From positions 1-30,274 of IMG/VR virus record IMGVR_UViG_3300046794_000481: a stretch of DNA of 30,274 bases. One strand, 5' to 3'. This DNA is from a virus. This document shows, one piece after another, positions 303 to 21,483 of this stretch (position 1 is its first letter; each line of letters starts with the position of its first letter). Under the pieces are notes generated by a model. The model was not told the origin of the DNA and made no database searches. It saw only the letters and a list, made by a program, of their open reading frames with translations. A program made the position numbers and the translations under genes.

Positions 303-2204
303 CTAACCGACCAGCTCTGCGCCATGTGGAAGTGAATGTTGGTCGGAGTCAGCCATTCTTGACCGGAAGAACTTCTCCGTAGCCTTATCCTCGAAATACA
401 CGTAGCATCCCTTCATACCCCGGCTAAGCAGGATGCGATAAGTATTCTTTACGAGTTCAAGGAAGTTAGGGCTGCGCTTTACTTCTTTGTCGTGAGAATG
501 ACTAGGATCCCCGATCCACTGTCCGGTCAGCTCATCGTACCGAAGATCCTTACCGAAGATGACGCCCACATAGTCAAATTCAAACCCTTGCGCTGTATAA
601 ACACAACCAACTTGATTGATCCCGCCAGGCGCTGTTGCCCACAAAGCCGCTTCAGGGACATCATTAGCCAAACGAACAGAGCCAGGCTTAGCGTTCCAAG
701 GACGGGTGAAGCCGTCAACAACAACATCATGTACCAAGGTCCCATCCTGATTAGGTTTAGACCATGGCCAGCAGAACCCGGCTGTTACTCTCGCACTGCT
801 GCCATGCGAAGCTCGTCCGATGACCAGTCTCTCAAGTTCAGTTGGAGAGTCTACGATTTGAAACGTGAAATCCTCGCTCGGAACCCATACTTCGTTCGCG
901 GTGTCACGAATGCCCAGCGTGTTGTCAATCCAGTTTACGAACCCATCTGCTCCGCCGCATCGGAATTGAACTTCCAGTTCGAACTCACTGATCGAAGCCC
1001 CTTGTGCCAAAGCAGCAGATCGAATGTATTCCGCCGACCCAATCTCCCCAGGTCGGACCGTTTGGGCGTCGTCGATGAAGAGAACCAAGGTCTTTGCCGC
1101 ATTGAAGAGTTCCTCGAACTGCGTCAGCGGACCGGGCTTCCTGTACATGATTTTCGTCTTTTCACGAATCCGGTGAGCTTCATCAATAATCAACACGTCA
1201 ACGGCGTGGCTTGCGGCATCGATATAATTGTGCGTGTACTTCAAGGCCGTACTGCCTCGTCTGCCAACCGTTGTACGCAACGTTTCCGTAAATGCCTTTG
1301 AGCCAGTCGCATAATTTGCATTAAATCCTGCTTTCATCAAGGCGCCAAGCAGCTTCAGTGCCACTACAGATTTTCCTGATCCAGGCCCTCCCCTCACTAG
1401 GATTAGCGATTTCCGGCGCTCGTTGAATGCCCTTGTTGCTGCATGAAACACCGCATCGAAGCTCACTAACTGCTCATCGAGCAGCACATACTGTGGCAGT
1501 CCGGCGATCACGTCGGCAACATGATCCATAAGTTTGCGGCTGGCTCTGTAGGTGTTCTGTTCTACCAACCCGGCAATGTCTAATCCCTCGCCAAACCCGA
1601 CCTTGCTTTTCAGATGTTGAACCAGTTCCTCAACCTGGTCTGCGTTAAAGAGGGGGTACGCCGCAGTCAACTCTGAGAATTTCTGATCTAGGAGGGGGTC
1701 GGGGATCTTTGACGCGTAGTTATGTAAGTAGCAGCATCCCGATAGATGGATTTTCTTCTCAGAGGAATCAAACGCAGAGTGGCTGTCTTGTAGGTAACTA
1801 ACATACCCACGCGCCTGAGCGGAAGGATGCAGTACAGTGCGGTTTGCCTTCGCGACGAACGTGATAACTTCATTCGGTCCCGCGCTAGCCTCGACACTCG
1901 ACCATTGCTTCAGCTCGATCAGCACTGCATGGCTTGCTCCGGCAGCATCTCTTCCAGTGACAATGCAATCCACTCGCATCGACGTTAGAGGGAGCTGATA
2001 CTCAAGTATCACACCCTGAGCCTCGAAGTCCGCCAAGCGGAATACGTCTGCGATGGCCCTCAGAGAATTTCGCCAAGAGTTTATCTCCGATTCTCCAGGA
2101 CTGTGGCCACGATAGATCTGAAAAGCCCCCTTTAATTTTTCGGAAATCTGATTAGTTTCGCAGGCGCGAATGAATTGCTTGGCAGAAGATGAGTAGAGGC
2201 GCAT
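303..2204 (-). CDS. DUF2075 (Schlafen group 3-like) DNA/RNA helicase with N-terminal nuclease-like domain
   Basis: The 633-residue protein has a P-loop GGPGSGKS (272-279), a Walker B/DEAH box (LIIDEAH, 338-344), an FIDDAQ helicase motif and a C-terminal NTYRILLSRG motif VI. This layout is typical of the DUF2075/SLFN-g3 superfamily 1-like helicase family, which is often found in defence islands. The N-terminal 110 residues show a PD-(D/E)xK-like pattern, RVD (D79) followed by IELK (E97, K99), suggesting a nuclease fold. The predicted role is ATP-driven nucleic-acid processing in the cytoplasm, probably against invading DNA; this is inference. The ATG at 2204 has only a weak ribosome site. It is the last gene of the leftward block, 71 bp after the HEPN-like gene, and both could be co-transcribed. 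Length fits the family and no lesion is visible. Confidence 0.85.
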   Translation of the reverse strand: MRLYSSSAKQFIRACETNQISEKLKGAFQIYRGHSPGESEINSWRNSLRAIADVFRLADFEAQGVILEYQLPLTSMRVDCIVTGRDAAGASHAVLIELKQWSSVEASAGPNEVITFVAKANRTVLHPSAQARGYVSYLQDSHSAFDSSEKKIHLSGCCYLHNYASKIPDPLLDQKFSELTAAYPLFNADQVEELVQHLKSKVGFGEGLDIAGLVEQNTYRASRKLMDHVADVIAGLPQYVLLDEQLVSFDAVFHAATRAFNERRKSLILVRGGPGSGKSVVALKLLGALMKAGFNANYATGSKAFTETLRTTVGRRGSTALKYTHNYIDAASHAVDVLIIDEAHRIREKTKIMYRKPGPLTQFEELFNAAKTLVLFIDDAQTVRPGEIGSAEYIRSAALAQGASISEFELEVQFRCGGADGFVNWIDNTLGIRDTANEVWVPSEDFTFQIVDSPTELERLVIGRASHGSSARVTAGFCWPWSKPNQDGTLVHDVVVDGFTRPWNAKPGSVRLANDVPEAALWATAPGGINQVGCVYTAQGFEFDYVGVIFGKDLRYDELTGQWIGDPSHSHDKEVKRSPNFLELVKNTYRILLSRGMKGCYVYFEDKATEKFFRSRMADSDQHSLPHGAELVG

Positions 2205-2275: not shown

Positions 2276-2950
2276 TCATGCGCTTGTAACCCAAGGTGCG
2301 CACCACCGATGGTTACAGTCGAGACATCCGTTCTCCGGAACCAACCCATTCGTTGGCGTCTCGACAACACATCCGGCCAGCATTACTTCTCCCCGCAAAT
2401 AGGCTCCCCACGCTCTGCTGTCTGGTTCTCCCCATAGCAGGGGAACCCCTTGAAGTTGTCCGCACAGTGGACAAACCGTTTTGCTGAACACAGGGAAGCA
2501 GTAACGCTCGCTCGCGTACACGTGAAATCGCTTAGTAGACGGCGTGTCGTCCCTCAACAGAAGCCAACGACTCTCAACTGCGCGTTCCAAAAGATCGAAG
2601 GCTTCCTGCTCGATGTCCATGTACATCGTATCCTCCGTTCCATCGGAATGCTTCAGCCAGTTCCGAGCAGAGTTGAGGGCAATTTTGACACCATCCTTTG
2701 TGCCTTTCCCCCCATCACCACGTATGGCCTTACGCTCCTCCTGCGTCAGCGATTCGTCGAATCGACCATGTAGCTGAGTGAAGGCCGATGCGGCACCAGA
2801 ACGTTCGACCATCTGGCCGAAAATCTCCTCTGCCGCACCAGCGAGCGTAAGTGCCGAGTAGTAATCCTCTTCCTCTAAGAACAGCTTAATAGCGCGCTCC
2901 AACTGAATACACGCAGCTTCCTTTTGGTTATGGAATCTTGATACCATCAT
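2276..2950 (-). CDS. HEPN-like protein with C-terminal zinc ribbon
   Basis: The N-terminal 130 residues are helical and contain an R-x4-H motif (R96, H101 in ARNWLKH) preceded by an AGAAEEI helix, the pattern of HEPN RNases and HEPN-like accessory proteins. The C-terminal 65 residues form a separate unit with CPLC (C160, C163), an LAGC (C194) and GCLDC (C209, C212), which resembles a small stand-alone bacterial zinc-ribbon family. Joining these two modules in one chain looks unusual. The start is taken at the ATG at 2950 behind AGGGAAG; GTG 2953 and ATG 2947 are alternatives. The gene lies between the nitrilase gene (57 bp upstream) and the helicase gene (71 bp downstream), all leftward. An RNA-cleaving defence or toxin role is possible but unproven. 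Confidence 0.7.
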   Translation of the reverse strand: MMVSRFHNQKEAACIQLERAIKLFLEEEDYYSALTLAGAAEEIFGQMVERSGAASAFTQLHGRFDESLTQEERKAIRGDGGKGTKDGVKIALNSARNWLKHSDGTEDTMYMDIEQEAFDLLERAVESRWLLLRDDTPSTKRFHVYASERYCFPVFSKTVCPLCGQLQGVPLLWGEPDSRAWGAYLRGEVMLAGCVVETPTNGLVPENGCLDCNHRWCAPWVTSA

Positions 2951-3007
2951 CACTTCCCTATATTTAGGGCCTTCCAGATCCCAGAGAAAACGTAATTAGC
3001 CCCAAAT

Positions 3008-3931
3008 CTATTTACCATATGATGCACGCTTACGCAGGCCGTCGAGCGGAAACAATGGCGGAGTAGGCTTAAATAATTTGGATTCCTTCTGCAATCCATA
3101 ACCTTTTCTCTGATGAACTCGTAGCTCTTTGAGGTCCAGGCTCATGGCCAAAAACGTCAAGTTCTCCCCACCTTTGATACGAAGCGGATTCATACTTACG
3201 GACGGAGACGGACTTATCACACGTGAGTCACCAAATGCTGAATCGTTAACTTGAACTACATAACAGTGCAAATCGCGAGCCGCAGATTCAACAATGTTGG
3301 AAAAATAGTTGGTGTCACGGTTAAACTCTGTAGCAACGATGAAGTCAACGTGTCCTTTAAATAAGGCCCGATCCTCAATCGAAGTCAGCTCGAAGCAGTT
3401 ATAAATCGCAAAACTTGCGCCACGCCATCGAAAAAGGTGGTAAGGGTTTTTTGCTTTTGGCATTGTCAAACCCTCGTTCGTCAGAATGAATTCTTCTTCT
3501 GGCGAGTAAAACCTCTTTAAACGACGAACGGGCACACAAGACCAATGCCCAGTTGGCGAGACATAAGGTAGTGCAGCTAACACCTCATTTAGAGCTTGCC
3601 CCCTCAAATCGACCTTGTGCTCCAGGCCACAGACAACACCTATTCGATGTCTACGCGCCCAAGTGACTAACATACTTTCCCAAGCATGAGGAATGCTAAC
3701 CTCTGGGAATATAACTAAATCGATCTTTCGCTTTTGCTTATTCCTATATACTGCTATTTCGTTTAATAGGTTCGTAAAAGGTTTCAGCCTTGCTCGACTT
3801 AGCACAGGAGTGCCCAAATAGCTGGCCTCCACATTACGAGGTTCAACAGGAACGTTAGCAAGAGCGATTTGAATGTTGTCGTGCAGATCTGCAGTATCAC
3901 AACCAACATCGATTTCTTCATAAGATAACAC
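3008..3931 (-). CDS. Nitrilase-superfamily protein, partner of the reverse transcriptase
   Basis: A carbon-nitrogen hydrolase fold of 307 residues. The Glu-Lys-Cys triad is readable: E77 in FPEVSIP, K139 in RRLKRFYSP, C179 in IYNCFE. Nitrilases cleave C-N bonds through a thiol ester on the cysteine, but the substrate here is unknown. In known defence RTs of the UG1/DRT1 kind a nitrilase-like domain is fused to the RT C-terminus; here it is a separate chain. Its GTG start (3931) lies 4 nt after the RT stop, with AGAGGA 8 nt upstream, so the two are translationally coupled. The alternative start is forced by position, as no ATG lies near the domain start. The sequence is AT-richer than the rest of the window, a sign of separate acquisition. 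Confidence 0.85.
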   Translation of the reverse strand: MLSYEEIDVGCDTADLHDNIQIALANVPVEPRNVEASYLGTPVLSRARLKPFTNLLNEIAVYRNKQKRKIDLVIFPEVSIPHAWESMLVTWARRHRIGVVCGLEHKVDLRGQALNEVLAALPYVSPTGHWSCVPVRRLKRFYSPEEEFILTNEGLTMPKAKNPYHLFRWRGASFAIYNCFELTSIEDRALFKGHVDFIVATEFNRDTNYFSNIVESAARDLHCYVVQVNDSAFGDSRVISPSPSVSMNPLRIKGGENLTFLAMSLDLKELRVHQRKGYGLQKESKLFKPTPPLFPLDGLRKRASYGK

Positions 3932-3935
3932 GAGA

Positions 3936-5876
3936 TCAATCCTCTTCAGCTTCTAGTTTTATCCAAGTAATTCCACTAATATCTTGCCGGTTGGCCTCTT
4001 CAAAAACCGACGAAGCAAACTCAAATGGTGACTTTCGACTAGTCTCGACATTGCCGCTATATGCAAGCAACATACACTCATCAAAGTTAATAAACCTAGG
4101 CGTTCTCTGCAACTTTTCCTTATCGAGCTTGGCACGCTTCATCAACTTTCTGGCACTAAGTGGACCAGCATAAGTAGTAAAGTTCAATAGTGGCGCCCGG
4201 ACAAAGTGATGTCTGAGCATATTTGAGCGCCGAAGGTGCTCCGAATGAATATCATCGACAATATCGGACAGCCCAACGTCTTCGCTACAGACCGCTTCCG
4301 ACATTGCGAGCGAGAACAGCAAGTGATTCTCTAGGTCGCGCTGTAGAGCTTTCGTTACCGCGGGGACTCCGGTACGCACACTCGATATCTCGCTCTTTAG
4401 CTGCTTGGTAAAGGCGCGCAGCGTAGAACCGTCCCCAGAAATACCAAGTAAGGTTAGGACCCGCTCCCATAAATCGAAGAATTCGATTGCACTGCGTCCT
4501 TTGAAAAACTTTTGCAATCCCTTGCTAACCGTTCGATCAGGAGGATCATCAGTAACCAAATGCAGTATAGTCTGTCTTGCCAGATGTTTTGCCAACTCGT
4601 ATCTATTTTCCGCGACCCCTTTTACACTACGAAACTTATTAACGGAGCCTTCATATAGTAATTCGTAAGCTATGTCTTCCATTGAGTTATCTGCCTCATC
4701 AACAGGCAACAACAGGAAGTCACTACCATTTTCCTCGAGCTTCTTTTGAAACTTCTCCAGACCAGCTATTGAGTGCTTTGCATCAAAATACTGCAAAATG
4801 CACTTCGACTGCTGCAGACGCAGACCAGGTCGAGCCTGCACTTCGTATGTACCGTCTTCTATTTCTTCTAGAAGACCAGCGTTTACCAACAGTTCCTGCA
4901 AAAATGCTTTAACCGGACCGCCGCTCTTGCTGGCAGGCATTCGGCCAATTGGAACCACTAACAGAATGTCATCAACGTATCGACCATAATAAGCAGGCTT
5001 AATCCCATTAAGGATTGACGCGTCAAAATCTTGAAGATACCAATTCGCCAAAACAAGCGATGAGGGCAACCCTATAGGAAGACCAGTTACTGACTCTTCT
5101 ATATCGGGATGTGTTTTAAGCATCAATTGCTGGATCGAAGCACGGTAGGCCAACCCAATGGCTTTGATGCAGCCAAGCAAAACACTGCTCCCCTCTTCGT
5201 CATTAGACTTATTTATAGATTTTAATTTATCACCAACCCCATCGAAATCAATATTAATGCGATAGAAGTACTCTTGCAGATCGAGCCCGAGAATCGCGAC
5301 ATTTTTGTTCTCATCGGTTAAAAGCTGCTTTGCTTTACGAATACCGGTATCACGCCATCTAGCATACTGTTCATGGTACTTACTGAATAACTGAAGTGAC
5401 TCATCACCTTCATTACGTAACTTCTCAGACAATCTCGACCCACAGCACTCTGGAAAAAGTTGCGCGTCCAAATGTCGACCTTCAATCATGATCCACAATA
5501 CTGAGATAATGTATAGCTCAATTGGCCCATCGAAAAAGTAATTCACTTTATCGACATGAATAGTCTTGGCGCTTGTTACGTTCGTGATGAACTTACCGTG
5601 GTGATCATCACAGTTGAATTCGTCGTCACTCTCGGAGCGAATTTTCTTTGGAACGATGCGAAAATTCACATCACTTAACCATTGCTGAAAGCCTGGCTCA
5701 ACCGTGGGCTCATCAGAATTAAGCACTTCTTTAACGGACTCAAGTTTATCCAGGAAATCCTTCGAGCACTCAAACGCGGCCAGGCGCGTCCGCAACCTGA
5801 GGTCAGTCTTATCGTAATATACGTAGCTCTTTAATTTTCGGTACGCCGTTTCAACATCAGCATCAGATATAAACAC
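3936..5876 (-). CDS. Defence-associated (UG/DRT-type) reverse transcriptase
   Basis: The 646-residue protein carries RT motif A (LGLDLQEYFY, D199), motif B (GLPIGLPSS, 265-273) and motif C YVDD (300-303, D302/D303), so the polymerase site is intact. About 190 residues precede motif A, and more than 300 helix-rich residues follow motif C. There is no group II intron maturase X/HNH domain, no retron msr/msd upstream and no DGR repeat. With the nitrilase gene 4 nt downstream, it fits the 'unknown group' defence RTs (compare UG1/DRT1, RT-nitrilase). Translation starts at GTG 5876, with AGGAG 5 nt upstream. The ATG two bases earlier is out of frame. The likely action is RNA- or protein-primed cDNA synthesis on phage infection, with the nitrilase as partner. 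That mechanism is inferred. Confidence 0.88.
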   Translation of the reverse strand: MFISDADVETAYRKLKSYVYYDKTDLRLRTRLAAFECSKDFLDKLESVKEVLNSDEPTVEPGFQQWLSDVNFRIVPKKIRSESDDEFNCDDHHGKFITNVTSAKTIHVDKVNYFFDGPIELYIISVLWIMIEGRHLDAQLFPECCGSRLSEKLRNEGDESLQLFSKYHEQYARWRDTGIRKAKQLLTDENKNVAILGLDLQEYFYRINIDFDGVGDKLKSINKSNDEEGSSVLLGCIKAIGLAYRASIQQLMLKTHPDIEESVTGLPIGLPSSLVLANWYLQDFDASILNGIKPAYYGRYVDDILLVVPIGRMPASKSGGPVKAFLQELLVNAGLLEEIEDGTYEVQARPGLRLQQSKCILQYFDAKHSIAGLEKFQKKLEENGSDFLLLPVDEADNSMEDIAYELLYEGSVNKFRSVKGVAENRYELAKHLARQTILHLVTDDPPDRTVSKGLQKFFKGRSAIEFFDLWERVLTLLGISGDGSTLRAFTKQLKSEISSVRTGVPAVTKALQRDLENHLLFSLAMSEAVCSEDVGLSDIVDDIHSEHLRRSNMLRHHFVRAPLLNFTTYAGPLSARKLMKRAKLDKEKLQRTPRFINFDECMLLAYSGNVETSRKSPFEFASSVFEEANRQDISGITWIKLEAEED

Positions 5877-5889
5877 ATAAACTCCTAGA

Positions 5890-5920
5890 AAGACGTCTTC
5901 AAACTAGTTGCATGACGTCA
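5890..5920. promoter_or_regulatory. Paired GACGTC palindromes upstream of the RT gene
   Basis: Two perfect palindromes centred on GACGTC lie in the 5' leader of the RT gene: AAGACGTCTT (5890-5899) and TGACGTCA (5913-5920). Their centres are 22 bp apart, two helical turns, so a dimeric regulator could bind both on one face. No regulator gene was linked to them. Confidence 0.35.
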
Positions 5921-5976
5921 CTGCACCTCTGCTCGTTTTTTTGAGCTTTAATTTACCATTCGAGGTGGCTCATCAG

Positions 5977-5985
5977 ATTATCACA
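5977..5985 (-). promoter_or_regulatory. Possible extended -10 promoter of the RT-nitrilase operon
   Basis: On the minus strand this reads TGTGATAAT, an extended -10 element (TGn plus GATAAT). No good -35 box precedes it, which extended -10 promoters tolerate. Transcription would start near 5970, giving a leader of about 95 nt that includes the GACGTC palindromes. Confidence 0.35.
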
Positions 5986-6095
5986 GTAAAACTTTTGACG
6001 TATCGATTGCCGCTGAGACGTTACGATTGCGCTTCGGCTCCCGTATGTTTTGTTACTCGTCAGCTTAATGAGTCTACGGCACCGTGCCCGTTCCT

Positions 6096-6938
6096 CTATA
6101 GCGCCTTATTCATGTCAACCGGTAAGCCCGCTGCGCGCAGTTCCTTTGCAAGTTGCAATCGCCAAGCGCCACGGTCATCGAGTTCTATGTATAGGACACC
6201 AGAATAGTCTGACGGCATTTCGAGACCGCCACGGTACAGTGCACAGACCCGATTTCTACCGAGCCGGCCGATAAAGTACCCCAGCTCGAAAACTACGTTT
6301 TGTCGTGCCCTCGGTCGAAGTTCTTCAAACGACATGCTCCGTGTGCCACCTTGGTCATCCGGCGTGAGTAAGACCACAGTGAAACCAACGTCTGCGTATT
6401 CCTCAAACTTTTCGACAATTGTGCGACCTTGGTTGGGCTGTTCACGAAGTATCACAACCTCTTGATCAAGCGTCTCAAGGAAGCGTGCGGTTTCGTGAAG
6501 GATACCCTCGTCATGTCCATGAACAAGGAAAATGCGGTGGCCTAATGGTCCCGATGGTTGAGCTACGACATGCTGTTCCTGGAGTTCAGCTTCTGTATCA
6601 AGCAGTTCGATTAGTCCGCCCAGCTTAGCAAGTTGAGTCCGCAGGTTCTCCGCACGGCGCCGCCCCCACCATTGCTCGTCTGCATGCATTGGAAAGGCCC
6701 CGTATCGGCCAACGTCAACGATTGCGGAAATGTTTGGCGAGTTCTTCCCGAATGCCTTCTCTAAGTAATTCCTCGCAACCATAATCCACGTCGAGTATGC
6801 ATCGTTATTGACGAAATGTGGACCTACTAGCTCAGCACCGGCCTCTGCGTGCTTTCGCAAAAGCTGAGCTGCTTTCGTTGGGGAGAGTTCAGGCTTTCCA
6901 ATAGCCTGTGCCTCTGTATTTGAACGTTTGTTCGCCAC
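6096..6938 (-). CDS. TIR-domain predicted nucleotide-binding protein (Cap12/PycTIR type), first copy
   Basis: The C-terminal half is the TIR-like domain found in Cap12 and Pycsar TIR effectors (PF10137 type). It has IFLVHGHD (136-143), EQPNQGRTIVEKFEEY, VVLLTPDD and RARQNVVFELGYF with the candidate catalytic Glu E218. TIR domains of this group hydrolyse NAD+ to arrest infected cells; activity of this protein is inferred. The first 130 residues form a different, basic helical domain that may be the sensor. It starts at GTG 6938 with AAGGA 6 nt upstream. A paralogue lies 188 bp upstream in the same direction, and the RT gene lies 219 bp downstream. No CD-NTase or cyclase gene is nearby, so this is not a standard CBASS or Pycsar locus. 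Confidence 0.82.
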   Translation of the reverse strand: MANKRSNTEAQAIGKPELSPTKAAQLLRKHAEAGAELVGPHFVNNDAYSTWIMVARNYLEKAFGKNSPNISAIVDVGRYGAFPMHADEQWWGRRRAENLRTQLAKLGGLIELLDTEAELQEQHVVAQPSGPLGHRIFLVHGHDEGILHETARFLETLDQEVVILREQPNQGRTIVEKFEEYADVGFTVVLLTPDDQGGTRSMSFEELRPRARQNVVFELGYFIGRLGRNRVCALYRGGLEMPSDYSGVLYIELDDRGAWRLQLAKELRAAGLPVDMNKAL

Positions 6939-7126
6939 TGATGGTCCTTCGAGTTGATGAGTGCAATGAACGGAAACGAGGAGCCACTGCCATACCCGAC
7001 TAGGCTCTTACTGAAGCGGCCAATGAAGGAAGCGAACACCACTCATAGCGTCGACATAGAATACTCTTGCATAAGCCTTGTCTATGCCCCGCCGAGCCAC
7101 GGATTTCGCCTAAATGTCTAGATTGA

Positions 7127-7951
7127 TCAAATCAGTTTATTGAAGTCGACAGGATAACCAGCACTCTTCATTTCTTTTGCTATGTCGATTTGCCAGTCCG
7201 TATCCGAGACATACACCATGCCACTAATGTCACCAGGGAGTTCAATACGCCCGTTTACCAATGGCACGACACGGTCGCGGCCCAACTTCGCCATAAGATA
7301 ACCATGTTCAAAGACTACATTCTGCCGCGCTCGGTCGTTTAGCTGCCCCGTACCCGCTTCCCCTTTAGAATTCCCTTTGTCATCGGCAGTATAGAGAACG
7401 ATAGCAAAGCCTACATTCGTGTAGGTTTCAATCTTTTCGATGATGGTCTTCCCGCGGCTCGCTTGCTCATGCAGGATGATCGCTTCAAAGCCCAATTTTT
7501 CGATGAATCGCGCCGTTTGGGTCTTTACTAGTTCGTCGTGGCCGTGAACAATGAAAACACGGTTTTGATTAATTGAATGCTCTTTGCTCATCTGCTCACT
7601 CTCTTCGCTAGCTGCCTCGGCTTTTGTTTCCGCTTCGTACTCACCCGCCTGGATGTCCACTATTAGAGAATCAATGAACGAAGCGACAATTTCACCATCC
7701 GTTCTCCAGAAACGCTGAGCATCGCTCTCTCCAACGTGGATCGAATAGACGAGATGGTGCAGTTTTGAACTCAGTCGAGACGACTCGCCTGGAAGATTAT
7801 CATCCAGAAATTTTGAAAATTTTCTCCTCCAAGCGGCAAATCGTTCGTTGCCATAGGTCGAGCCACGAGTCGCGTACGCCTGAAGAACTTCACCCGTTAG
7901 GCGATCTCGATAAGACTGCAATGTGTCAACAATTTCTTCTTTTTGTAGCAC
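7127..7951 (-). CDS. TIR-domain predicted nucleotide-binding protein, second copy
   Basis: It has the same C-terminal TIR-like domain as its neighbour: FIVHGHD (133-139), EQASRGKTIIEKIE and RARQNVVFEHGY with Glu 215. The N-terminal 120 residues are unrelated to the first copy (acidic near residues 105-125), so the pair shares an effector but not a sensor. The longer reading from ATG 7969 is possible, but a perfect AGGAGG (7958-7963) lies inside it, 6 nt before GTG 7951, so GTG 7951 is taken as the start (274 residues). It is the first gene of the leftward defence block. The function, NAD+ depletion or nucleotide binding during phage attack, is inferred from the family. Confidence 0.8.
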   Translation of the reverse strand: MLQKEEIVDTLQSYRDRLTGEVLQAYATRGSTYGNERFAAWRRKFSKFLDDNLPGESSRLSSKLHHLVYSIHVGESDAQRFWRTDGEIVASFIDSLIVDIQAGEYEAETKAEAASEESEQMSKEHSINQNRVFIVHGHDELVKTQTARFIEKLGFEAIILHEQASRGKTIIEKIETYTNVGFAIVLYTADDKGNSKGEAGTGQLNDRARQNVVFEHGYLMAKLGRDRVVPLVNGRIELPGDISGMVYVSDTDWQIDIAKEMKSAGYPVDFNKLI

Positions 7952-7984
7952 CGAAAACCTCCTGCTCATGACTTTACTCGGTGT

Positions 7985-8083
7985 TCAACATTTTACTACT
8001 GTCTGTTCGGCAACGGGCGTTTTGGCCTGCAAGTCACAACGGTAGGCGTAGGTCTGCACCAGCATGGTCCAGACTTTCAGCAT
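7985..8083 (-). pseudogene. Short open fragment, possible gene remnant
   Basis: Thirty-two residues can be read from ATG 8083, beginning MLKVWTMLVQTYAYRC. The composition looks coding, but the frame is cut by a stop just upstream and no domain is recognisable. It may be the tail of a decayed gene. Apart from this, 7970-8270 holds nothing I can support. Confidence 0.2.
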
Positions 8084-8273
8084 TAACTGCGCAACTAAAA
8101 AGTTTCACTACAAAAATTTGAAAGACCACTCGACGAGTCGACACTGACTCACTCCCCCGTAGGTACAAGCAAGCCTGACGGGATGGTGGCACAATAAAAG
8201 TTTCCAGGATTTCTAAGGGGAACGATGGTCTGTAGCCATTCGCTGAGCTTCATACGCCAAGGTTCGCTCGGCT

Positions 8274-8504
8274 CTAGTGCGTGCCGCTCTTAATGCCGAG
8301 GTTCCAGATGGGTATGTCCGAGTCGAACACTGCATCCTTCTGCAGGCAATAGTTCGCTACAGCTTCGACCAATCTATCTGGAACCGGTACTTCAGGGCCA
8401 TTCAAACCGAGCTGGACCATTTGCTGCTGAAGGTCCGAAATTGTCCGTTTCCGTACACCGTTTACAACACTGTCCGAAAGTCTACTTGTAAACGTTTCGT
8501 ACAT
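8274..8504 (-). CDS. Hypothetical small protein
   Basis: A 76-residue reading frame with no recognisable domain. Its start region lies inside the res-like repeats and there is no good ribosome site. An overlapping plus-strand frame of similar length exists, so coding strand and reality are both uncertain. It may be the remnant of a gene cut by insertion of the recombinase module. Confidence 0.25.
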
Positions 8505-8535
8505 GCACTACGATTCGGACTCCCTTTCCGTACAC
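8448..8535. promoter_or_regulatory. res-like recombination site upstream of the serine recombinase
   Basis: The stretch just before the recombinase start holds two exact copies of TTTCCGTACAC (8448-8458, 8525-8535) and a variant TTTCGTACAT (8495-8504). Between them is a 9-bp perfect inverted repeat, CGTTTACAA (8459-8467) and TTGTAAACG (8486-8494), spanning 36 bp. Several recombinase-sized sites next to the resolvase gene is the layout of Tn3-type res, where resolvase recombines DNA and represses its own promoter. Identity is inferred from layout, not from a sequence match. Confidence 0.5.
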
Positions 8536-8548
8536 TCATGAGTTTCTG

Positions 8549-9124
8549 ATGTCCCGAGTTTTCGCTTACTGCCGAGTATCCACCTCCGACCAAACCACCG
8601 AGAACCAAATCCGCGAGATTGCTGCAGCAGGGTTTGCTGTGGCGGCCCACAGAACGATCACTGAGACCGTCTCCGGCTCAGTTGCGGCCATGGAGCGCGA
8701 AGGCTTCAAAAAGCTCCTGAATAAGCTGGAGGATGGGGATGTTCTGGTTGTGACCAAACTCGACCGATTAGGTCGCAATGCGATGGACGTTCGGTCATCC
8801 GTGGAGTACCTAGAGCGGCTTGGTGTCCGTGTCCACTGCCTTGCTCTCGGCGGTGTCGACTTGGCGAGTCCGGCTGGAAAAATGACCATGCAAGTGATCA
8901 ATGCAGTTGCTGAGTTCGAGCGAGATCTCCTGATTGAACGTACCCACGCAGGGCTGACCAGGGCCAAGGCTGAAGGGAAGACTTTCGGACGGCCATCGGC
9001 GTTGTCGAAGGACCAGCAGAGCGAAGCCCGAAAGTTGCTGGCCGGGGGGGTACCAGTTGCCCAGATTGCCCGTCAGTTCGACACAAGCCGTCAGACGATC
9101 ATGCGGCTTCGGACTTTCTCGTAG
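8549..9124 (+). CDS. Serine recombinase (resolvase/invertase family)
   Basis: A complete small serine recombinase of 191 residues. It has the N-terminal catalytic motif YCRVST (nucleophile S11), TKLDRLGRN, the [11 protein letters not shown] loop, the long dimerisation helix with [12 protein letters not shown], and a GRPS linker leading to a C-terminal helix-turn-helix (about 155-190). It cuts and rejoins DNA through a serine-phosphodiester bond, resolving cointegrates or inverting segments. The putative res site lies directly upstream and a tandem repeat array directly downstream. No transposase of a Tn3 element is present, so the gene may be a plasmid-type multimer resolution system or a transposon remnant. 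The ribosome site before ATG 8549 is weak. Confidence 0.92.
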
Positions 9125-11886: not shown

Positions 11887-13329
11887 TCAGGGTATCGACC
11901 TGACTGGCGGCCTCACTTCAAACTTCAACTGCTCAAGAATAGCCTTCTTGTTTGGCAACGACATTTCCCCACGGCATCCACGCACGACCCGACTTGCATC
12001 TCCCGCGTGACCTGTGATGACTTCGATGTTGGCAATATGATTGTTGAAACCATAGTGCAGAAGGGTATGGCGGAAAGCATGCATGCCCAGCAGTGTCTGC
12101 CCGTGGGTCTCATCCCTTAGGCCAGTCTCTCGAAGAAACTCACGGAACCAATCTTCTGCGGCCGGGCTTGCTCTTCCACGCGTAGGCACCCATGAAGGGA
12201 ACAGGACGCTTGCTCCCTGCTTGTTGATCCGCTCCACGTAAGACAGAAAGCCAAGTTCCAGCAATTGCGAATGGATCGGCGTCTTTCTCCGTGACCCGGC
12301 GGTCTTGACGCTCTTCGTCACGCGCGCATCGGCGGCTGACTCCTCGGTGAAGTCGAAGAACCAAATCCCCTGTTCCTCGCGGATATCGACTTGCGGATTC
12401 AGCTGGCAGATTTCATTGACACGCGCGCCAGTGTAGAGACCGATCAGCGGCAACCAGTACTCAGCCGCCTTGCCGGGATCCGCTGCGAACGAGGCATACT
12501 CGCTGCCCCCGAAGAGACGCTTTAGCTCATCTTTGCGGAATGCTCGCTGCTTCTTCGCCCCTTCCTTCTGGCTGCCTTTGTACTTGATACCCTCGACGGT
12601 AAGGCGCTCAGGGAAGCCACTATCGCCGAACAAGCGCTTTGCCTCGGCCAGGAATGGCCGTATGGATGCCATGTAGGAGTATTCAAAGGTCTTCGGTGAG
12701 AGCGTGACTTCGTGGTCCTGTTCCGCCAATTTCTTGGCCGAGATGCCTTTGCGCCTCACCTCATCGGACCATCTCGGCGGAAGCCGACACAACATTGCAA
12801 AGTAGTTGTCGATGTCGATTTGCCGGATGCCCGACACCGGAACGTTACCAATGAACTCAAGGAACAGCCCAAGCGCAGCTTGATGCTTCTTGAACATAGC
12901 AGCAGTCTTATCGTAATTGCCTAAGAAGTGGCTGACGACATCTCCAAGGCTCGGCGTAGACAGGCCAGTTGGCAGAACGGGCGATGCTCTTTCCGTCTCA
13001 ACCTTCGGCGCGAGCGGCGACTCAACAAACTCACCTTCGTTGCGTCTGCGCTGGATTTCGAGCTTCTGCTGTGTGGCCTTGGCGAACTCTCGGGCGACCT
13101 TGCGGAAGTCGGGCGAACCCGGCTCCAAGTCGTACCCATGACCCATGAGCCACTCGTTGACGATATCCGTGAATGCCGAGTAATCCCCTCTTGCCGCAGC
13201 TATTCGAACAGCATCCTTGTCAGGCGTGGTCACGCTGGGTCCAAATTGAGGAGGATGCGAGAGAAACTCTATCTGCCCCTCGTGCCGCAATTCTTCGTCT
13301 ACCTGTGCTGATGACGCCAGCATAGCCAT
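11887..13329 (-). CDS. Tyrosine-recombinase-family integrase with the catalytic tyrosine replaced by cysteine
   Basis: A 480-residue phage/island-type integrase. The catalytic domain has the first Arg in LYTGARVNEICQL, the box II HAFRH (H417, R420) and GHAGD (H441). The nucleophile should follow about ten residues later, but the sequence reads VVRGCRGE with Cys 452 (codon TGC), and no Tyr occurs anywhere after H441. One base change, TAC to TGC, would explain it. The long N-terminal region (1-130) and the SAM-like core-binding domain (about 135-260) look intact. Without the Tyr the protein should not recombine DNA, so the island may be fixed in place. ATG 13329 is taken as start, with a weak GGGAA upstream. 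Confidence 0.9.
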   Translation of the reverse strand: MAMLASSAQVDEELRHEGQIEFLSHPPQFGPSVTTPDKDAVRIAAARGDYSAFTDIVNEWLMGHGYDLEPGSPDFRKVAREFAKATQQKLEIQRRRNEGEFVESPLAPKVETERASPVLPTGLSTPSLGDVVSHFLGNYDKTAAMFKKHQAALGLFLEFIGNVPVSGIRQIDIDNYFAMLCRLPPRWSDEVRRKGISAKKLAEQDHEVTLSPKTFEYSYMASIRPFLAEAKRLFGDSGFPERLTVEGIKYKGSQKEGAKKQRAFRKDELKRLFGGSEYASFAADPGKAAEYWLPLIGLYTGARVNEICQLNPQVDIREEQGIWFFDFTEESAADARVTKSVKTAGSRRKTPIHSQLLELGFLSYVERINKQGASVLFPSWVPTRGRASPAAEDWFREFLRETGLRDETHGQTLLGMHAFRHTLLHYGFNNHIANIEVITGHAGDASRVVRGCRGEMSLPNKKAILEQLKFEVRPPVRSIP

Positions 13330-20952: not shown

Positions 20953-21404
20953 GCAAGACCGCACAGGTGGCCAGCGATATCGAGGTCCAATGTACCCGCT
21001 GCCGCAACAAGCATCAGGAATCCGAACGCCAGCTGCAGGTTGTCGGAGACGGCCATTGGGCGCGGGTTTGCCCGCGCTGCAGCTGCCGTTCCTTCTTCGA
21101 CATCCGGTCCCAGATCGCGTGGTGCTGGTCGTCTGGCCTGATCGAAACGGGCAATGAAGATGCGCTGCCGGAGGGAGCCATCCTCATTGCCAACGGGCCG
21201 AAGGCATACCTGACCGGGACCATCGCCGCTCTTGCCCGCATTGGCCGGGGTGCCAACGAGGGCACGTTCCTGGTTCCGGGGGTGCCCGAACTGGATGGCC
21301 AGGAGGCCAAGAACGATGCGCTTGCCCAGTGGCTGAAATGGTGCGCCCGGAACAACGGGCACAAGGGGCGCCATGGCGTGGTGTTCGTGACACCGAACTA
21401 CTGA
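20949..21404 (+). CDS. Phage protein with N-terminal zinc ribbon
   Basis: The protein has 151 residues. Residues 15-44 form a four-cysteine ribbon (CTRC, C15 and C18; CPRC, C41 and C44) suited to nucleic-acid binding. The rest is an uncharacterised domain (AYLTGTIAALARIGRG). The true start is ATG 20949, coupled to the upstream gene; the in-frame position 20931 lacks a ribosome site. Likely a small DNA-binding accessory protein of the early operon; no family name is assigned. Confidence 0.7.
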   Translation: MSKTAQVASDIEVQCTRCRNKHQESERQLQVVGDGHWARVCPRCSCRSFFDIRSQIAWCWSSGLIETGNEDALPEGAILIANGPKAYLTGTIAALARIGRGANEGTFLVPGVPELDGQEAKNDALAQWLKWCARNNGHKGRHGVVFVTPNY

Positions 21405-21411
21405 AGCGAAA

Positions 21412-21458
21412 CCGGCCGCTGGTGACAGCGGTCGGTCTGCCTGGCGTGGTTGCCAGGT
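21412..21458 (+). promoter_or_regulatory. Two stacked RNA hairpins between early genes
   Basis: Hairpin one pairs 21412-21421 with 21426-21435 (10 pairs, one G-U) around the tetraloop GTGA, a GNRA-type loop. Hairpin two pairs 21440-21445 with 21452-21457 (6 G/C-rich pairs). They lie between a stop codon and the next ribosome site (AAGGAGAA, 21473-21480). No T-run follows, so a processing, stabilising or attenuation role is more likely than termination. Confidence 0.45.
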
Positions 21459-21483
21459 ACCGATGAGCAGCCAAGGAGAATTC

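Follow-up and report, generated by a model that had tools for sequence, protein, structure and literature searches.

A UG5-small reverse transcriptase encoded beside a separate nitrilase: a probable two-protein anti-phage system

The DNA analysed here (the window) is a 30,274-nt stretch catalogued as an IMG/VR virus record. It carries, on the minus strand, adjacent genes for a reverse transcriptase (RT) of the UG5-small family and a stand-alone nitrilase. By analogy with the DRT1 defence system, the locus is probably a bacterial anti-phage system in which the two products act as partner proteins. We are fairly confident of a more specific reading, namely that it is a class 3 DRT system of the UG5-small type, comprising a co-translated RT and a separate nitrilase effector and working by the mechanism proposed below. 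The elements of the pair are:

5877-6095, minus strand: 219-nt intergenic stretch upstream of the RT gene, with AGGAG ahead of the RT GTG start
3936-5876, minus strand: UG5-small RT, 646 aa, GTG start (PADLOC RT_UG5_small profile, tree, invariant columns)
4722-4724, minus strand: codon for Ser385 of the RT, a candidate site of DNA priming (invariant-column alignment)
3932-3935, minus strand: 4-nt gap between the RT stop and the nitrilase GTG (sequence)
3008-3931, minus strand: stand-alone nitrilase (CN hydrolase), 307 aa, GTG start (PADLOC, fold match, alignment)
3050-3070, minus strand: nitrilase C-terminal lid motif, K288-P-T-P291-P-L-F294 (alignment)

The RT domain has both D199 and the YVDD motif (residues 300-303) intact, as stated in a first-pass annotation of this DNA, and the two motifs are invariant in an alignment of 10 UG5 RTs as well as in the split homologues. 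The protein matches the PADLOC RT_UG5_small profile over residues 3-637 of 646 (949.6 bits, E 1.8e-286). Other PADLOC models score lower (RT_UG5-nitrilase, 421 bits; Drt1a, 54 bits), and the Pfam RVT_1 match, at 29.2 bits, is under the gathering cut-off of 29.6. The C-terminal region of the RT is homologous to the segment preceding the nitrilase in fused UG5 proteins. An AlphaFold2 model of the RT, generated from a five-sequence alignment, had a pLDDT of 41.9, too low to be used.

In a maximum-likelihood tree of RT domains, five UG5-small RTs including that of the window form a single clade (support 100/99). This clade is sister to five RTs from fused UG5-nitrilase proteins (97/92), with UG1/DRT1 branching next (96/95), while group II-type and retron RTs fall outside UG5/UG1. 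Thus, the phylogenetic placement that the first-pass annotation had called for sets the RT apart from retron and group II RTs, in a tree that includes no confirmed DGR RT; the match to the UG5-small profile argues against a DGR RT. The profile scores likewise led us to reject a retron (28.7 bits with the retron St85 profile, cut-off 235) and a group II intron RT (20.3 bits, cut-off 300). Membership of UG1/DRT1 was rejected in view of the score of only 54 bits with Drt1a, the separate chains and the different clade. The earlier description of the locus as a split DRT-like system therefore holds insofar as the RT is DRT-like and its conserved nitrilase is a separate protein, but the family is UG5 rather than UG1/DRT1. 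The suggestion that it represents a separate subtype was also correct, although the subtype is not new, UG5-small being already catalogued (PADLOC RT_UG5_small).

A tree of the nitrilases shows the same arrangement as the RT tree, the split nitrilases again forming one clade (99/99). Since UG1 and the sister group within UG5 are both fused, a single fission at the base of UG5-small is the simplest history; two separate fusions are a possible alternative. A DRT1 from Sphingopyxis that seemed to be split was discarded, since it turned out to be cut short close to an insertion sequence. At another locus (L038, positions 4091-7129, minus strand) in-frame stops break a fused UG5-nitrilase gene into neighbouring ORFs of 594 and 417 aa. 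This interrupted fusion is possibly a decayed copy rather than a natural split.

The nitrilase scores 309.7 bits against the C-terminal part of the PADLOC RT_UG5-nitrilase model and 107.2 bits against RTasNitrilase; with Pfam CN_hydrolase it scores 17.7 bits, under the gathering cut-off of 23.2. The Glu-Lys-Cys triad previously assigned to it (E77, K139, C179) is entirely present and invariant in the split homologues, and so is E146, likely the fourth active-site residue, or second Glu, of the nitrilase. All four residues are invariant among 13 split, fused and DRT1 nitrilases, and C179 aligns with C1116 of DRT1. In total, 20 positions are invariant when split nitrilases are aligned with those of fused UG5 and DRT1 proteins. 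An AlphaFold2 model made from a four-sequence alignment reached a pLDDT of 71.8, and Foldseek returned CN hydrolases with a probability of 1.00, at TM-scores of only about 0.5 and with the C-terminal lid region predicted at low confidence. Both marks of the nitrilase superfamily, the catalytic residues and a CN-hydrolase fold match, are thus found in the window protein.

Conservation extends to the C-terminus. Residues K288, P291 and F294, defining a K-x-x-P-x-x-F motif, are invariant in the 13 split, fused and DRT1 nitrilases. The DRT1 counterpart is K1219-T-Q-P-A-G-F1225, where K1219 aligns with K288. Conservation of these three residues indicates that the separate nitrilase retains the part needed for the inter-subunit lid.

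Four further UG5-small loci were found, in Allopusillimonas soli (L002), a Nitrosomonadales MAG (L003), a Roseateles MAG (L004) and genome G149 (L013), encoding RTs with 64%, 58%, 67% and 44% identity to the window RT, respectively. The nitrilase gene lies directly downstream of the RT gene in five of five loci, the window and its four relatives making up the whole UG5-small sample. The first-pass annotation would have been contradicted by relatives lacking the nitrilase neighbour; all of them keep it. In the Nitrosomonadales MAG the contig ends within the nitrilase gene, and a second contig of that genome has at its end a fragment that fits the remainder. Genomic surroundings vary: HipA-like, AbiU2 and Shedu genes in A. 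soli, a DNA methylase gene in the Nitrosomonadales MAG and, in genome G149, an apparently chromosomal site where the pair stands alone between phosphoribosyltransferase and M15 peptidase genes. The pair is rare, as draws of about 400 genomes within order, family and class yielded only the seed genomes and one more. No relatives of the pair were detected in other IMG/VR contigs or phage records at the sensitivity used, and a search of plasmids retrieved only distant fused forms.

From this conserved pairing we infer, on good grounds, that the nitrilase acts in trans. Chance is excluded by the 949.6 bits of the RT with RT_UG5_small and the 309.7 bits of the nitrilase with the C-terminal part of RT_UG5-nitrilase. 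One could still envisage the nitrilase as an independent metabolic enzyme whose gene lies beside that of the RT by accident, for free-standing nitrilases are widespread in metabolism and the predicted fold matches many amidases. We regard this as exceedingly improbable, considering that the adjacency is kept in all five loci across differing contexts, that the RT and nitrilase trees are congruent and that the best-matching profile is that of the nitrilase domain in fused RT-nitrilases.

As noted in the first-pass annotation, the nitrilase start lies 4 nt past the RT stop. The sequence GAAGAGGA, inside the end of the RT gene, could serve as ribosome-binding site for the nitrilase. In all four relatives the two genes overlap or are close, and since the junctions range from an overlap to 8 nt, RT and nitrilase are likely to be translationally coupled. 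The 219 nt upstream of the RT gene gave no sign of a structured or templating ncRNA (fold z-score 0.17, no conservation in alignments, no Rfam match). In the Nitrosomonadales MAG the RT start adjoins the stop of the preceding gene.

Other features of the window are:

303-2204, minus strand: Schlafen group 3 type helicase protein (Pfam SLFN-g3_helicase, 283 bits)
2276-2953, minus strand: 225-aa protein encoded 54 nt past the nitrilase gene; paired Cys motifs close to its C-terminus
6096-6938 and 7127-7969, minus strand: two tandem TIR-domain proteins (Pfam CAP12-PCTIR_TIR; PADLOC PDC-S35)
8549-9124, plus strand: resolvase/invertase-type recombinase
11887-13329, minus strand: integrase-like protein
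21404-21476, plus strand: type II hammerhead ribozyme in a Mu-like prophage (Rfam RF02276, 62.2 bits, above the gathering score)

The tandem TIR proteins upstream of the RT are about 49% identical to each other in the TIR part. The SLFN-type helicase has an uncharacterised N-terminal part and a weak match to the candidate defence family PDC-S41. The 2276-2953 protein has no family match and does not occur beside the pair in the relatives. All these genes being on the minus strand like the pair, with gaps of 4 to 219 nt, they could form one larger system together with the RT and nitrilase. Such an arrangement looks quite unlikely: none of the other genes adjoins the pair in any of the four relatives; PDC-S35, which the TIR proteins match, is a family of single-gene candidate defence systems; and the region resembles an island of separate systems. 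As no other defence gene of the window is found next to the pair in its relatives, we take the functional unit to be the RT plus the nitrilase, a conserved two-gene module on a catalogued RT family.

Phage genes of the Mu type extend rightwards from about 13.8 kb, and in the terminase and portal genes the prophage DNA is about 69% identical to that of Pseudomonas phages, JBD5 among them. Given these genes and the origin of the window in a virus record, the pair might be prophage cargo serving superinfection exclusion. This is very unlikely in our view: the homology to phages starts at the repressor/transposase end, beyond the integrase gene at 11.9-13.3 kb; the G+C content is 0.43-0.47 at the pair versus 0.61-0.69 in the phage part; and the pair has no detected relatives in other viral contigs. 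The RT and nitrilase genes lie beyond the integrase gene, among other defence-type genes where the G+C content is lower, and are probably host DNA flanking the Mu-like prophage rather than phage cargo. Lying between the prophage and the defence genes, those for the recombinase and the integrase-like protein may mark another mobile element.

A mechanism for the pair can be drawn from DRT1. In that system, DNA synthesis is untemplated and protein-primed on Ser402 (PMC13275509, PDB 9yfd), the DNA drives assembly of nitrilase-cored tetramers and filaments (PMC13275509), and a C-terminal lid completes the nitrilase pocket of the neighbouring subunit (PMC13275509). Mutations in the RT (D324N/D325N), the nitrilase (C1116A) or the lid (K1219A) abolish or strongly reduce defence (PMC13275509). 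Purified DRT1, DRT5S and DRT5L all make DNA without added template (PMC13275509); we read DRT5S as UG5-small, and DRT5L as UG5 too, from their names and class, the paper's text not using the term "UG5". Likewise, the window RT would synthesise DNA untemplated and carry it as a covalent attachment, possibly on Ser385, and the DNA-modified RT would assemble with the nitrilase. The latter would form an oligomer in which each subunit's C-terminal K-x-x-P-x-x-F lid completes the pocket of a neighbour. Phage infection would then release or activate the nitrilase, with damage to a cell metabolite and abortion of the infection. A literature search found no defence assay on any UG5-small system and no experiment on this locus.

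As RT and nitrilase are separate proteins, the RT could alone be the effector, by dNTP depletion or through toxic DNA, sharing an operon with the nitrilase for the sake of translation and leaving the latter a part in immunity or an accessory function. AbiK and other class 1 RTs are described as producing untemplated DNA with no nitrilase involved (PMC13275509). We nonetheless deem an RT-only effector unlikely, because every active-site residue of the nitrilase is invariant, because conservation is higher for the nitrilase (55-77% identity) than for the RT (44-67%) and because DRT1 requires its nitrilase active site (PMC13275509).

Ser385 is a candidate DNA-priming residue, offered as a testable suggestion from the alignments. 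It is the sole invariant Ser/Thr after YVDD in the 10 UG5 RTs, a set in which identity between split and fused members is only about 25-32%. It lies about 85 residues past YVDD, after a helix-like stretch; DRT1 Ser402 lies about 81 residues past its own YVDD. The two serines share a column in four of seven settings of a 15-row alignment and in one of four when more sequences are included. Because of this instability, their equivalence is kept only as a lead. The authors of the DRT1 study report that conservation of S402 does not extend to the other class 3 DRTs (PMC13275509). It is conceivable, though we would not favour it at present, that UG5-small is a naturally two-subunit system where DNA built on RT Ser385 controls the trans-acting nitrilase through a DRT1-type inter-subunit lid, K288-x-x-P-x-x-F294. 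If so, DNA-controlled assembly would be a property of the partners and not of a fused chain, and class 3 DRTs would share a priming site.

UG5-small RTs and a model for an RT-associated nitrilase (RTasNitrilase) are both already in PADLOC. We found no description of the UG5-small nitrilase pair or its mechanism in the literature searched, a set that did not comprise the paper defining the UG groups (gkac467). In DRT1 a single chain makes the effect of DNA synthesis on the nitrilase hard to separate, whereas each half of the two-protein form can be expressed, purified, mutated and recombined alone. The natural split makes it possible to test whether physical contact is how DNA adducts act on the nitrilase, which compound the nitrilase destroys, and whether priming serine and lid are a mechanism common to class 3 systems.

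Among known systems, the window RT belongs with the UG5-small RTs (PADLOC RT_UG5_small, PDLC03781, listed under DRT), from which no difference in membership was detected over residues 3-637; that RT model does not cover the separate nitrilase gene. In a survey, a nitrilase was present within or beside 50% of UG5 RTs (PMC8934634). The RTasNitrilase entry (PDLC03804) points, by name and model, to an RT-associated nitrilase, but the window nitrilase scores 107 bits with it against 310 with the UG5 fusion model. The strongest RTasNitrilase matches are DRT1-length fusions and one orphan nitrilase. The latter, a stand-alone protein (L031, positions 7761-8642, plus strand; 348 bits), is encoded within a cluster of polysaccharide genes, and none of the ORFs listed over 13 kb there is an RT. 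Fused UG5-nitrilase RTs (RT_UG5-nitrilase, PDLC03780) are collinear with the pair, having RT, C-terminal region and nitrilase in the same order and the same active site and lid motif; they differ in being one chain of about 1,000-1,070 aa, with RTs only about 25-32% identical to that of the window. Class 3 DRTs are defined by an RT with a nitrilase (or phosphohydrolase) in a multidomain protein (PMC13275509); in the window the nitrilase is present as a separate protein, and the tree makes its RT kin to the fused class 3 RTs. DRT1 (UG1; PDB 9yfd; PMC13275509) is a single chain of about 1,230-1,300 aa from a distinct clade; it forms filaments, and its priming serine S402 is not clearly alignable to the window RT. 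Both systems nevertheless combine RT and nitrilase with conserved catalytic residues and the lid lysine that is essential in DRT1, and by this analogy the window pair likely works by the same logic.
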